Origin: Nitrospira sp.
GTDB lineage: Bacteria; Nitrospirota; Nitrospiria; Nitrospirales; Nitrospiraceae
Assembly (NCBI GenBank): GCA_018242665.1
Contig: JAFEBL010000006.1
Location: forward strand, 124,001-188,000
Reading direction: 5' to 3'
DNA length: 64,000 bases
Position numbers and translations under genes: made by a program. Positions within the stretch are counted from its first letter, which is position 1, and each line of letters opens with the position of its first letter. Below the pieces are notes generated by a model, which was not told where the DNA came from, ran no database searches, and saw nothing but the letters and a program-made list of their open reading frames with translations. Positions 12,664-18,740 of the stretch are shown in pieces.

Positions 12664-14040
12664 CTATTTCCGGGTAAAGACTGCCGTCGGGAATCGGAGC
12701 GTCACTTGGAGATCCGGTGCTTCCCGTGTCGCACCGACTCCGACGACGAAATTCATAAAACTGCGATCGCTGAGTCGATAGGCGCCTCCAATCAGCAAGA
12801 CCCCAATTTGAGTCACTTGCGGCGTCGTCGTCAGCAGCAGGTTTGAAGCGGACGTGGGTCTCTCAAACACCGTATGGTCGTATCCCACCGTCAACGAGAG
12901 TTTTTCGTTCAGCGAAATGCCGAGGCCCACATTGACATTGGCGCCACTTCCGGGATCGATGCGCCCGATCTGCCCGCCGACGTTCCGCGACATATTCCAG
13001 ATGTAGCTCACACTGCCGAAGAGGACGGCAGGATCGCTGGGAAACAGGGCGGTAAAGCCAGGTTGGAGAATGTAAAAGCCAGACCCCGTTGGCAATTCTG
13101 TTTGGAACCCTGTGATCGGATCGATCGGCACTTCGAATGGACCCTTCCCGGTCGTGCTCTTAAATCGAGTGAACGCCACGAAATAGGGTTCGTCGGTCCC
13201 ACCTTTGTTTAATTGGTATCGGCCTGTTGCTTCAACGTCACCGAGACCGGAACCATTCGCGGTCGATACCGTATTCGCCGTTGACGGCGTGGCAAGAGGT
13301 CGCTGCGTAATCGAGTCCTCCCGATAAAGATAGGGCACTCTCACCTCAAGTTCGAGTCGATTCGTGAGTCCATAGCGGGCGACCAATGCCGCGGTATAAA
13401 TGTCCCGACTTATTCCTTGGATATTGATGAGACCGATCGTGAGGGCTGGGACAATGGTAAATCCGGTCAGCGTGACGCGATTACTGCTGAGATGCGCATA
13501 TTGCAGATACGGCTCCACGATGAGTGTGCCCTTCGGAGTCAGCACCCCGGCTCCCGGCAAATCGAATGTCCGAACCATCCATGGAGGGAGCGGCGCTTCT
13601 TGTGGATTCTCCGGAGCGACTCCCACTGGGCTGGCAGATTTCGATGTTGGATCACCTCCAATTTGACCTTGCGCGGGCGCATCTTGCTCGGGCACCTCAG
13701 GTCCGATCGTCTGCGCTTGATTGTTTGCGACGAGATAGCGGGAGGTGTCGGGCGACCATTGAGATCCCGGACCGAGAAGGTTCTTCCACCGGTCTACTTG
13801 TGACGGGTTGGTATGCATATCGACGAGGCTGGGCTGGACCGCGCCGATCGGAGGGGCCATCAGGCTCACCGCGAGTCCCAGAGAGAAGGCAATCCACACG
13901 CCTGTACGAGTATTTCCGGCAGGTCTCGGCGACTCATGAAGTGGTGTCGAACGAGTAGAGATAGTCAGTGAGTCGGTGGAAGGAATGGTCCCACGGCGTT
14001 TGTTTGTCTGACGACCTGCCGGCTTGTACGAGACGTTCAT
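12664..14040 (-). CDS. Outer-membrane beta-barrel exporter of a Fap-like secretion cluster
   Basis: This protein is 458 aa with the start at MNVSYKPAG, two bases after the preceding stop; a longer frame overlaps that gene by 67 bases. A long basic N-terminus leads into a signal segment (VWIAFSLGLAVSLMAPPIGA). A Pro/Gln-rich linker to about residue 150 follows, then a barrel of alternating strands beginning GTLIVEPYLQYAHLSSN and ending ADLQ-like amphipathic strands (LQVTLRFPTAVF). The layout, periplasmic linker plus PF13557-like barrel, resembles FapF, the exporter of Pseudomonas amyloid. It is the last gene of the cluster with a C39 peptidase and three secreted proteins. The homology to FapF is by architecture, not proven. 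Confidence 0.7.
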   Translation of the reverse strand: MNVSYKPAGRQTNKRRGTIPSTDSLTISTRSTPLHESPRPAGNTRTGVWIAFSLGLAVSLMAPPIGAVQPSLVDMHTNPSQVDRWKNLLGPGSQWSPDTSRYLVANNQAQTIGPEVPEQDAPAQGQIGGDPTSKSASPVGVAPENPQEAPLPPWMVRTFDLPGAGVLTPKGTLIVEPYLQYAHLSSNRVTLTGFTIVPALTIGLINIQGISRDIYTAALVARYGLTNRLELEVRVPYLYREDSITQRPLATPSTANTVSTANGSGLGDVEATGRYQLNKGGTDEPYFVAFTRFKSTTGKGPFEVPIDPITGFQTELPTGSGFYILQPGFTALFPSDPAVLFGSVSYIWNMSRNVGGQIGRIDPGSGANVNVGLGISLNEKLSLTVGYDHTVFERPTSASNLLLTTTPQVTQIGVLLIGGAYRLSDRSFMNFVVGVGATREAPDLQVTLRFPTAVFTRK

Positions 14041-14042
14041 CT

Positions 14043-14552
14043 TCAATGCCGGATGGTGCCTATGGTGGCTTGAGAGAGCGCGTTGCCCAGTGCAAGCGAC
14101 CTGGTCCAACCAAGTGCTCCCACCGTGGCATTGATGACGGTCTGATGTTGAATATTTTGATTGTCGAGCGAGTTTTGTAAGACGGTCATGAGCGCGGGCA
14201 ATGCGGCTGTACCAGGCGTCACCGCATTGCCGCTTCCGGTTTGGACGAGTGTGACTACACGGCTCGGATTGCCCGCGAGTTGCATCAAGTCTGGGATGTT
14301 GAGGGCCATTGAACTGACGAGCTCACCATTACGATGCACGCTCCGTTCGATCCCGAATGAGAGAATCGGACCATTCTGGCTGCTTTGAAACCCTCCTCGC
14401 ATGTGGTCCAAGACCTCCTCGCTCACCGGCATCCGTTGCAGAAAATTCTCGGTTCCCTCGGAGGCCATGGCCGAAGTCATGGACGGCACACAAAGGGGGA
14501 GCACCAACAGCGTAGTCAGGTGGCGAATCGATCTGATGAGTCGGAAGCGCAT
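14043..14552 (-). CDS. Small secreted protein with double-glycine site and amyloid-like motif
   Basis: This 169-aa protein starts within the stop of the peptidase gene (TAATG overlap). It has a Sec signal peptide (about 1-30), then SEEVLDHMRGGF at residues 44-55, which looks like a bacteriocin-type GG leader end (Gly53-Gly54) recognised by C39 peptidases. The C-terminal part contains VLQNSLDNQNIQHQTVINA (124-142), a segment also seen in two neighbouring secreted proteins. A periplasmic substrate or minor amyloid component (FapA/FapE-like position) is inferred. No known family was recognised by name. Confidence 0.65.
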   Translation of the reverse strand: MRFRLIRSIRHLTTLLVLPLCVPSMTSAMASEGTENFLQRMPVSEEVLDHMRGGFQSSQNGPILSFGIERSVHRNGELVSSMALNIPDLMQLAGNPSRVVTLVQTGSGNAVTPGTAALPALMTVLQNSLDNQNIQHQTVINATVGALGWTRSLALGNALSQATIGTIRH

Positions 14553-15244
14553 TAGAAATCCTTCCCGCCGGGACGAAACAGCAGAATGCTGCTTAAAGTA
14601 TCGGCGCCGACCGGTTGTCCGAGCGGTGATCTCGGGCGGACGCTCCAGTCACGGGCAGTATTGAATTCGCCTCGTGCCGGGGCCTCATGGATGACAAAGA
14701 CGATGCGGTTCGGCCACGCGGCTTCGAAATCCCCGCGCGGCACTACCCGCATGCCGACTGCCGGGTCGCCGAGCAGGACCTTATTGTCCCGCAGGCCTTT
14801 GATCACCACAAAATGGTGATAGCCGTTATCCACCATCAACACGATCGCCGGAAGACCGGCCTTCGCCACCTCGTCCAGAGAGACCTCAAATCCGTCTGCG
14901 CGATAGCCCTGTGCCTCTAAAAATCGCTTCATATCCAAGAGCGAAAAGCCTTCGCGTTGAATTTTTGGCTGGTCGCCGTGGTCGAACATCTCGCGGAACG
15001 CCACTTCTTCAGTGATGGGATTCCCATAGTGATAGGTCAGGAGGGTGGCGATGGCGGCCGAGCCACAGCTGTAGTCATATTTTTGGAGGATGACAGACCG
15101 GATTTTGAGTTCGCGCATACTCCAGACTTGGAGCAACATTCGACTCCCGACTCCTGGAGTGACCTCCACCGTGGCCGCCATCGCACCGGTAGAGGCGGAG
15201 AGCAGCAAGGCCAGCACAGATCCAATGGCACGGTTGGTCGACAT
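14552..15244 (-). CDS. Periplasmic C39-family cysteine peptidase (FapD-like)
   Basis: This 230-aa protein has a Sec signal peptide (residues 1-23, ending AMA) and a single peptidase C39 domain. The catalytic set is visible: Gln54 and Cys60 in LQKYDYSCGSAAIATLL, His144 in YHHFVVIKGL, and Asp160 in LLGDPAVG. Unlike bacteriocin exporters it has no ABC transporter domains, so it acts alone in the periplasm, as FapD does in functional-amyloid operons. C39 enzymes cut after double glycine, and both flanking genes encode secreted proteins with a GG site. The C-terminal 40 residues are a basic, Pro-rich tail. Confidence 0.85.
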   Translation of the reverse strand: MSTNRAIGSVLALLLSASTGAMAATVEVTPGVGSRMLLQVWSMRELKIRSVILQKYDYSCGSAAIATLLTYHYGNPITEEVAFREMFDHGDQPKIQREGFSLLDMKRFLEAQGYRADGFEVSLDEVAKAGLPAIVLMVDNGYHHFVVIKGLRDNKVLLGDPAVGMRVVPRGDFEAAWPNRIVFVIHEAPARGEFNTARDWSVRPRSPLGQPVGADTLSSILLFRPGGKDF

Positions 15245-15250
15245 GGACTT

Positions 15251-15595
15251 CTACTGCAGGGTTAAGTTCAGTACGGTCCCGTTCTGAATGATCACGTTGT
15301 TGCCTGAATTTTGGATGACCGTCGCAAGGCCGTTCGATCCGGCAAACGCGCCGCCTGTCACCGTATTATTACCCGTCACGTTACCGGTAGCGGAATTGTC
15401 AAACAGCTTGGCGTTCAGCATGTTCGCGTTGATCGTGACCGGACCGGGGTCCGTTCCCCCACGTTGGACGTCCAATTGAGCGGACGGGACAGGCTGGCCC
15501 CACGAACTCACCGGCGTCGTCTCAGGGGAGCCGGCGTGCGCCATGCCCACGCAGAGCCCAAGGACCGTCGCCACAGTTGAGAAGTAGATGTGCAT
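15251..15595 (-). CDS. Small secreted Asn/Gly-rich protein with GG site
   Basis: This 114-aa protein follows a GAGGG ribosome site. The signal peptide ends around AHA (residue 21). SAQLDVQRGGTD (39-49) contains a double glycine at 46-47 in the same setting as the 169-aa neighbour (L-D-x-x-R-G-G). The remainder is rich in Asn, Thr and Gly and ends with VIQNSGNNVIIQNGTVLN (93-110). That pattern of alternating aliphatic and Asn/Gln residues is typical of amyloid strands. It is likely a secreted, C39-processed component of the cluster. Confidence 0.65.
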   Translation of the reverse strand: MHIYFSTVATVLGLCVGMAHAGSPETTPVSSWGQPVPSAQLDVQRGGTDPGPVTINANMLNAKLFDNSATGNVTGNNTVTGGAFAGSNGLATVIQNSGNNVIIQNGTVLNLTLQ

Positions 15596-15667: not shown

Positions 15668-16654
15668 TTAATGACCGACCGTGACGTTCGCCATCGTGGT
15701 CACACCGACCTGCTGGAGACTGGCCATTCCCGTGTTCTGAATGGCGACGGTCACTCCGGCGGCGCCGCTCAACCCGGAGAGGGTGTTAGAGGCATTGAAG
15801 GTTCCTGCACTTCCGCCGAACGAGTCTCCGCCTCTGCCGCCCGCTGCACCAGATCCACCATTGGCAGTCGCAGTCGAGGCTCCGCTAGTCGCGGAGCCGC
15901 CCGTACCACCCGCCCCACCGGTTGCCGTTCCGCCGTTTCCACCGGTTGCATTACCAGCTTCCCAATCAGTAGCTCCGTTGGTGGTATTCCCTGTATTGGG
16001 GCCGCCGTTGGCAGGGCTGCCAGTGCCGCCATTGGAAGTGCCCCCGTTCGTGCCGTTGGACGTGCTGCCGGCGCCGCCTGTGGCAGAGCCACCATTGGCC
16101 TTGGCATAACCACCATCCCCACCGTATGAATACGCTTTCCCAGAATGCGCTTTGGCTACGGCATAGCCACCATCTCCCCCGCGCCCGCCGTCTCCTCCAT
16201 AGGAGGCCGAGCCTCCGTAATTCCCAATGTGGGAGATGCTGTTACCGGACACAGATCCATCGAGCTTGGTGGCATTGACCACGGTGCTCTTATTGAACGC
16301 GTCGGTCAGGTTCAGTTGCAACGAGGTCGTGGCCGTCGAGTGGTTGTTGGCTGCTGCCCCAAAGGGAGAGTGATCGTTCTTCGCTTTTCCATCCCACTTC
16401 GTCTTCTCGTTATAGCTGTCTTTTATCTTCGTGTCGTTATTGGAATCGGTATTCGTTTTCGTGGTGTTTCTTGTGTCGTTATCGTTTTTCGTAATGGTCT
16501 TCGTGTGGTTATCGATGCTGTTATCGGTCTTCGCCACAGCCTTCGAATTGTCCGATGCCGCGGCGCTGCCGTTGTCGACCGTTTGAGCGCCAGCATAGGG
16601 TGAAAGGCCGAAGGCCAATGCCAACGCTGCCGTCGTGATCATCACTTTCTTCAT
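15668..16654 (-). CDS. Gly/Asn-rich secreted structural protein (putative amyloid or adhesin subunit)
   Basis: This 328-aa protein begins after TAGGAGGGTGAC. A Sec signal peptide ends at GAQ (about residue 23). Residues 25-95 are Asn/Asp/Lys/Thr-rich, dominated by (T/N)KN-D-N type repeats. Residues 145-290 are extremely Gly-rich (GGDGGYA, GGRGG, NGGTATGG). The tail VAIQNTGMASLQQVG (303-317) resembles the motif of the two small neighbours. Such composition suits a secreted fibre subunit; placement at the head of the operon before a hairpin fits high expression. It could also be a low-complexity adhesin. No named family is claimed. Confidence 0.65.
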   Translation of the reverse strand: MKKVMITTAALALAFGLSPYAGAQTVDNGSAAASDNSKAVAKTDNSIDNHTKTITKNDNDTRNTTKTNTDSNNDTKIKDSYNEKTKWDGKAKNDHSPFGAAANNHSTATTSLQLNLTDAFNKSTVVNATKLDGSVSGNSISHIGNYGGSASYGGDGGRGGDGGYAVAKAHSGKAYSYGGDGGYAKANGGSATGGAGSTSNGTNGGTSNGGTGSPANGGPNTGNTTNGATDWEAGNATGGNGGTATGGAGGTGGSATSGASTATANGGSGAAGGRGGDSFGGSAGTFNASNTLSGLSGAAGVTVAIQNTGMASLQQVGVTTMANVTVGH

Positions 16655-17237: not shown

Positions 17238-18740
17238 TCAACCGGAGGGAAGCAGTTCTTCTTTGTCACCGCCTTTGTGGCTGGGCAGCCTACCGAGAAG
17301 TCCGCGGGTACGCAGTCTGTTAAAAAGGGTGCGAGGTGATAGCTTCAGCAGGGCAGCCATCTGCAAGCGACAGCCTCTACTTTCTCGCATGGCCCATACG
17401 AGCAATAGCCGCTCGCATTCCGCGAGTACTTGAGTAGATGACATGCCGTGCTTGACCTTCTCCAGCAGCGCGTCCGCGAAGCCATCCAAGCTATCGGAGC
17501 CGTTTTCATCACACAGATGAGTGAAGACTTCCGGCGGCAGATCTGCCATGTTCATGATGTCTCCTGCCTCCTTCCGAAACATGGCTTTTCGTACGAGGTT
17601 TTCCAATTCTCGGACGTTGCCTTCATAGGTCAGCGTCGTGAAGAGTTCAAGCACCCGTGAATCGACATCATGAATCGTTCCGGCGTAACAGGAGGCGTGT
17701 TTATTGACAAAAAAACGTACCAGTGGCTCAATGTCTTCCTTGCGTGCCTTCAGGAGAGGGAGCCGCAGAGAGAACACATCGAGTCTCTGATACAGATCCA
17801 TACGAAACGCACCGCGTGCCACCTCTGCCGTCAAATCCTTATTACTGGCCGCAATGATCCGAATGTCCGTCTTCTGCTCATTTTCCTCTCCGACCGGACG
17901 AACGGTTCCTTCCTGAAGCACCCGGAGCAACTTGGGCTGTAAATGCTGATCGAGTTCACTGACCTCATCGAGAAAGAGCACCCCGCCGCGGGCGGCCCGA
18001 AAATACCCTTGACGATCCTCATTGGCCCCCGTAAACGCGCCGCGCTTATAACCGAAGAACTCGCTCTCAGCAAGTGTGCTCGAGATGGCACTGCAATTGA
18101 CGGCAATGAACGGTCCCTTTGCGCGCTTTTCATCCAAATGATGTATGGCTCTCGCTACGACTTCTTTGCCGGTTCCTGACTCGCCGGTCAGCAACACCGG
18201 CACGTCACTGAGCTTCGCTGCTTTTTGGACTTGATCTCGCACGCTCTGTATTTCAGCGCTGGACCCCACCAAACCAAGCTGTTCTGGAAACGAGTGCGTA
18301 CTTTCATCGGTGTCTTTGGTCCGCTTCAGAGCCATCAGGACGTTGGCTCTCAGCTCCCAATAGAATCCCGGATCGGATTCGTCCAATAGGACGGTCACAC
18401 CTTTGGCGAAAGGTATACAGTATTCCGACAACGACAGACATTGGGCGGATTCGGCATAGGCAACCGTCACCGGTGGCCTAGGCAGCTCAATCATCGACTC
18501 GAGGATTCGATCTCCCCAGCATATTTCCAATGAGCACGCACAGTCGACGGAACGCCAGCGGAGGGGAAAAATCACGACTGTGGGAGTCAGGCGATGGACT
18601 GCGGGAAGGATCCGATCACAGGTGTAAATCGACTCGACGCGACACGAAGCGCGAAGCACGTCGGTAATGCGATGAAGGCGAACCCGGTTCCAGTCTGCAA
18701 CCACAATGGTCCTCTCGGCCATATCGGCGTGCATATTCAT
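17238..18740 (-). CDS. Sigma-54-dependent transcriptional activator, upstream of the Fap-like cluster
   Basis: This 500-aa protein has an N-terminal region (1-140) that looks like a degenerate receiver: [20 protein letters not shown] starts like one, but the acidic phospho-acceptor pocket is not evident. The AAA+ domain has Walker A GESGTGKE (186-193), the sigma-54 contact loop GAFTGA (234-239), Walker B GGVLFLDE (252-259) and R-finger region. The C-terminal HTH ([19 protein letters not shown]) completes it. It probably activates the neighbouring secretion operon, but no sigma-54 site was found there. The start has a distant GGAG; ATG at 18734 is an alternative. Confidence 0.9.

Follow-up and report, generated by a model that had tools for sequence, protein, structure and literature searches.

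A Fap-like export locus in Nitrospira sets a FapD-like C39 peptidase between two secreted proteins with double-glycine leader ends

In a stretch of 64,000 nucleotides from a Nitrospira sp. contig (the window), the gene of a free-standing C39 cysteine peptidase lies between the genes of two small secreted proteins that carry double-glycine leader ends behind Sec-like N-termini, and, judged by the relationships of the encoded proteins, these genes appear to form part of a Fap-like locus for amyloid export that is a cousin of the operon serving Fap export in Pseudomonas. Our main reading, to which we give a probability of roughly 0.7, is that the locus is a Fap-like operon for amyloid biogenesis and export, in which a periplasmic C39 peptidase would trim the propeptides of the 114-aa and 169-aa secreted proteins at Gly-Gly, and that this cut would license passage through, or opening of, an outer-membrane pore.

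The locus is transcribed from the minus strand. Its genes encode, in order of transcription, an upstream sigma-54-dependent activator (17238..18740; Pfam Sigma54_activat, 5.7e-64), a 328-aa Gly/Asn-rich secreted protein that is a candidate fibre subunit (15668..16654; Sec-like N-terminus, no leader end), the 114-aa secreted protein (15251..15595), the 230-aa FapD-like C39 peptidase (14552..15244), the 169-aa secreted protein that occupies the position of FapE (14043..14552), and a FapF-like outer-membrane pore (12664..14040). Six bases separate the end of the 114-aa gene from the C39 gene, the C39 gene shares one base with the 169-aa gene, and the FapF-like gene adjoins the 169-aa gene on its downstream side; peptidase, 169-aa protein and pore stand in the order fapD-fapE-fapF. 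The pore is 458 aa long when read from the ATG at 14040, and 481 aa from an alternative TTG start at 14109, as given in the list of open reading frames. The activator is a possible regulator of the locus; a 72% identical gene occupies the same place in two other loci (L129 and L130). No sigma-54 promoter was found 5' of the operon at two or fewer mismatches (window-wide, 22 matches against 19 expected), and predicted sigma-70 promoters and terminators did not rise above the level of shuffled sequence. Many genomes have a sigma-54-type activator gene no more than about 6 kb from a Fap-like locus (17238-18740 here; L095-L108, L129, L130).

Among 61 relatives searched, five carry the FapD-type C39, and it is these same five that carry the 114-aa and 169-aa families, a count that sets aside a C39 fragment of 100 aa at the end of a contig in one genome (G017) and the other C39 domains of the order, most of which lie within proteins of about 490-910 aa. 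Since the three genes travel as one operon, this co-occurrence shows linkage rather than three separate gains. All close orthologous loci that were found lie in Nitrospira genomes, with peptidases 75-90% identical, and the gene order of the locus is kept in other phyla. The initial annotation, whose coordinates and letters for the three genes were correct, had suggested that processing at the glycine pair would link them functionally; the shared occurrence and the kept order support a linkage of the three genes.

The peptidase scores above the cut-off of Pfam Peptidase_C39 (2.9e-22), and its fold and catalytic Gln/Cys/His/Asp make it a member of peptidase family C39. Catalytic Cys60 sits in QKYDYSCG, and Gln54, Cys60, His144 and Asp160 are invariant across 17 relatives of 24-90% identity. 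The AlphaFold model (mean pLDDT 72, core blocks about 80-93) matches PCAT1, ComA and 6mpz, a double-glycine protease solved with a leader peptide, at Z of about 19-20. Among NCBIfam models it matches FapD (3.5e-39) and FilB (7.2e-35), both far under the equivalog cut-offs (for FapD, 134 bits against a threshold of 330), and on the tree it falls in a clade beside FapD. It shares the C39 fold, the catalytic set and the double-glycine leader end with the bacteriocin ABC exporters PCAT1, ComA and LahT; there, however, a cytosolic peptidase domain is fused to the exporter, whereas here the C39 is free-standing and predicted to be periplasmic, with a Sec-like N-terminus, no ABC fusion and substrates delivered by Sec, and it is thus not a bacteriocin-type peptidase-containing ABC exporter. 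A second C39 domain in the same genome (contig C6, 92135-92497; L002), outside the window and about 46 kb from the locus, lies in a 727-aa open frame and is probably part of an ABC-fused exporter.

A periplasmic C39 peptidase beside a FapF pore is already known. Pseudomonas FapD acts in the periplasm, and its C38A variant blocks FapC secretion (PMC5557850), a precedent for periplasmic C39 action on Sec substrates, which the initial annotation had taken to be unusual; co-located fapD and fapF homologues were reported from five further phyla in 2018 (PMC6173800).

Both proteins flanking the peptidase have N-termini that are Sec-like as judged by eye (...SAMA|SEG and ...AHA|GSP), followed about 25 residues past the signal peptide by the glycine pair that had first drawn attention to them. 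In the 169-aa protein, 'PVSEEVLDHMRGGFQ', the leader end EVLDHMRGG closes with Gly53-Gly54, the predicted cleavage site (codons at 14391..14396, minus strand), ahead of the predicted mature start Phe55; its register has Val at P12, Leu at P7, Met at P4 and Gly-Gly at P2-P1. In the 114-aa protein, 'VPSAQLDVQRGGTD', the leader end QLDVQRGG closes with Gly46-Gly47, again the predicted site (15455..15460, minus strand), ahead of Thr48 as the predicted mature start, and P4 is Gln, not a hydrophobic residue. The original reading of these features as double-glycine leaders served by the C39 holds up in its register, the catalytic residues and the Sec-like N-termini; it had missed the Fap-like context, namely the FapF-type pore, the FapD-like peptidase and the FapE position.

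The 169-aa protein has no direct match in Pfam or NCBIfam, and its AlphaFold model (mean pLDDT 36) was not usable. Comparison of its family with FapE by hhalign gave probabilities of 90-94, the alignment taking in the leader end and then SFGI, at the start of the mature part, and a related Photobacterium protein matched the FapE model at E 0.0053. Since the hhalign match covers the leader end and SFGI, homology is supported for that part only, and over it the 169-aa protein appears to be a remote homologue of FapE. The alignment maps the leader-end motif onto FapE as ELxxLRG[RK][YF], which Pseudomonas FapE carries as ELATLRGRY, and on this footing LRG[R/K][Y/F] is likely to be the site at which FapD acts in FapE. 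FapE is the one Fap protein whose N-terminal part was missing by mass spectrometry; the 2017 study left the target of FapD open, its authors pointing out that Fap proteins are without canonical C39 sites and that the class may use another recognition sequence (PMC5557850), and a 2025 review words the role of FapD as 'thought to process' (PMC12822426). Neither a FapD cleavage site nor the FapE LRGRY motif was found in the open-access literature searched. As far as that literature shows, the combination of Sec and double glycine in the flanking proteins, the link between these proteins and FapE, and the FapD site that this predicts in FapE are new.

Comparison by hhalign shows homology between the 114-aa and 169-aa families (probability 97 over 107 columns). 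The 114-aa protein has a C-terminal IQN..NN..IQN segment, and its family matches FapB weakly, over 27 columns at a probability of 83. The 328-aa gene is kept upstream in all Nitrospira loci; its product shows only a short C-terminal likeness to the 114-aa family (probability 79-87 with a widened set). As a candidate for FapB or FapC this protein was rejected, with no detectable homology, and among eight genes tested there was no NCBIfam match to FapA, FapB or FapC. The pore is a clear homologue of the crystallised FapF 5o67 (5.9e-27 over residues 170-451) and matches NCBIfam FapF at 6.1e-35, but its 121 bits fall short of the equivalog cut-off, which is 700. Because FapA, FapB and FapC were not found and scores lie below the equivalog cut-offs, the claim that the locus is a Fap system is the weaker one, and the claim that it works like FapD acting on FapE is the stronger. 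Cleavage of the FapF linker has been proposed for Pseudomonas (PMC5557850), and the C39 might accordingly serve mainly the pore or the 328-aa subunit, with the double-glycine proteins as bystanders; we find this improbable, as a leader end is missing from the 328-aa protein in every Nitrospira locus and none was recognised in the FapF-like proteins listed, whereas almost every locus has the site in its double-glycine proteins.

All 11 Nitrospira orthologues of the 114-aa protein, and likewise all 11 of the 169-aa protein, keep R-G-G unchanged. Across 19 proteins of the 169-aa type, with 18-80% identity to the window protein and with some rows picked by the RGG motif itself, the sole invariant columns are R52, G53, G54, F55 and G67; in 13 wider proteins of the 114-aa type, R45, G46 and G47 are the sole invariant columns before the mature part. 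Because some alignment rows were motif-chosen, the loci were re-read by synteny only, taking small secreted proteins, other than barrels, that are encoded immediately after a FapD-like C39 (n = 45, not independent since ten come from one genus). The expression [LM]xx[LMIVYQHS][RTV]G[GRK], fitted after inspecting the data, occurs in 41 of these 45 proteins (500 shuffles: mean 0.8, maximum 4) and in none of 67 distant secreted or membrane ORFs; the four proteins that do not carry it belong to L016, L059, L108 and L131. The loci represent Nitrospirota, Pseudomonadota and Thermodesulfobacteriota, and many surveyed loci were unannotated, with ORF starts assigned mechanically. A matrix trained without Fap loci still detects the FapE site in Fap loci, which is to be read as conservation and not convergence because FapE and the 169-aa family are homologous. 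The 114-aa site matches the cross-group matrix less well (p 0.005-0.035).

Of the 41 motif-bearing proteins, 23 have G as the second motif residue and 18 have R or K. At the corresponding position, more remote relatives show T-G-Q (Fil type) or K-G-E (Helicobacter type), and L013 and L014 have Ala instead of the first Gly. The first Gly is thus near-universal and the second lineage-specific, being R/K in true FapE and Q/E in other relatives. Lack of conservation of the pair would have refuted the reading on the initial annotation's own terms; the pair is conserved in the genus and in the wider Gly-Gly clade, but the second Gly is not universal.

This variation bears on where the cut would fall. 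With Leu at P7 and a hydrophobic P4, the leader spacing speaks for cleavage behind the second residue, while the variability of that residue speaks for cleavage behind the first Gly; a canonical C39 would not be expected to take such a range (G, R, K, Q, E) at P1, which would imply either a tolerant S1 pocket or a cut behind the first Gly. The second residue can also differ within one locus, as in L109, L110, L115, L119 and L053, with Gly-Arg in the upstream and Gly-Gly in the downstream protein, so that one peptidase would have to take both. By eye, C39 residue 138, six before His144, is V or N with Gly-Gly sites and mostly D or E with Gly-Arg/Lys sites. Covariation between this residue and the second motif residue was rejected, with only 1-2 independent tree contrasts and exceptions in L054, L058 and L111; residue 138 is a possible determinant of the S1 pocket, its charge correlation being confounded by phylogeny.

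The varying second residue would also fit a different role for the motif: L-x-x-h-R-G-[GRK] could stay uncut and serve as a tag for binding to, or export by, the FapF-type pore, or else as the place where a chaperone-like C39 docks, its likeness to a leader being coincidence or ancestry. Conservation of the following residues (F/Y ... SFGI), needless for a pure cleavage site, and the chaperone role of some C39-like domains (PMC6173800) point the same way. We nevertheless consider this role unlikely, given that the invariance of all four catalytic residues indicates an enzyme kept active, that secretion is abolished by FapD C38A and N-terminal peptides of FapE are missing in mass spectrometry (PMC5557850), and that the register of the site fits double-glycine leaders.

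Compared with the Pseudomonas system (fapABCDEF; NCBIfam NF058616 for FapD, NF058559 for FapE, NF058560 for FapF), the Nitrospira locus shares the periplasmic C39, the FapE-type leader-end protein, the FapF-type pore and the order D-E-F. It differs in having G as second motif residue in place of R/K in FapE, an extra 114-aa double-glycine protein before the C39 and a peptidase from the clade beside FapD, and FapA, FapB and FapC were not recognised. The Acinetobacter Fil system (FilA, the C39 FilB, FilC), for which a search by name returned nothing useful in the literature, likewise combines a C39 with a FapF-like barrel, and the secreted FilA has a leader-like end, ATGQDG, near its N-terminus; Gly-Gln stands there instead of Gly-Gly, and the mature part of FilA is unrelated as far as tested. 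More widely, where a FilB-like C39 and a FapF-like barrel are encoded, the neighbouring FilA-type secreted proteins have a leader-like T-G-Q or T-G-E end (e.g. LSSVTGQAGI) directly after the signal peptide (L012 3000-5787; L061 4664-5533; L124 5397-5840; L125 6693-7148; L127 6695-7132), as though Gly-Gln took the place of Gly-Gly in a site of this kind. In Helicobacter and other relatives, small secreted proteins encoded next to the C39 have leaders ending MKETKGEF, MKDTQGA or LDGVTGE (L021 4739-5020; L023; L024; L060 3337-3804; L131 5523-6029; L059 4183-4593), and some of them have a hydrophobic, Gly-rich mature part with a bacteriocin-like look.

The nap island of Neisseria (the C39 NapP, the FapF-like NapF, NapABC) also joins a C39 and a FapF-like channel to secreted double-glycine products, with cleavage proposed in the periplasm (PMC11798529). 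A bacteriocin- or microcin-like system of this type could draw on that parallel and on the resemblance of some remote relatives (L059, L060, L131) to small hydrophobic bacteriocins, yet we rate it lowest among the alternatives. The nap products are short cationic peptides acting in autolysis, with no Sec signal discussed, whereas the proteins here have Sec-like N-termini and Asn/Gln/Gly-rich mature parts with IQN..N..IQ segments, are mutually homologous and include one related to FapE; no immunity gene was recognised beside them.

Under the preferred reading of a Fap-like operon, the 328-aa subunit, the 114-aa double-glycine protein, the FapD-like C39, the 169-aa FapE-like protein and the FapF-like pore would form one export route whose product would be amyloid. 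As the N-termini of the parts suggest, Sec would carry them across the inner membrane, and their signal peptides would be removed. The periplasmic C39 would then recognise the remaining propeptide of some 24-26 residues in the 114-aa and 169-aa proteins through its leader end, L-x-x-[M/Q]-R-G-G, and cleave behind Gly-Gly or, possibly, between the two glycines, giving mature starts at or near Thr48 and Phe55. By analogy with Fap, this cut may license the minor subunits for passage through the FapF-like pore, or for its opening, with assembly outside the cell; in true Fap systems LRG[R/K][Y/F] in FapE would be the equivalent site. For a broader generalisation we see the odds as evenly balanced: a Sec signal plus a C39 leader end (L-x-x-h-x-G-x) would be the general processing mark of a large superfamily of exporters built from a periplasmic C39 and a FapF-type pore (Fap, Fil, nap-like and Nitrospira type), cleavage of FapE-type minor subunits at this mark by FapD and its relatives would gate amyloid export, and Nitrospira RGG and Pseudomonas LRGRY would be one site in two forms.

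Nitrospira and its relatives thus retain an apparently canonical C39 site in the protein at the FapE position, and alignment transfers this site to FapE. The outcome is a testable single-residue prediction for the export of the Pseudomonas biofilm amyloid, and it shows how a protease of bacteriocin type could come to act on the parts of an amyloid exported by Sec.
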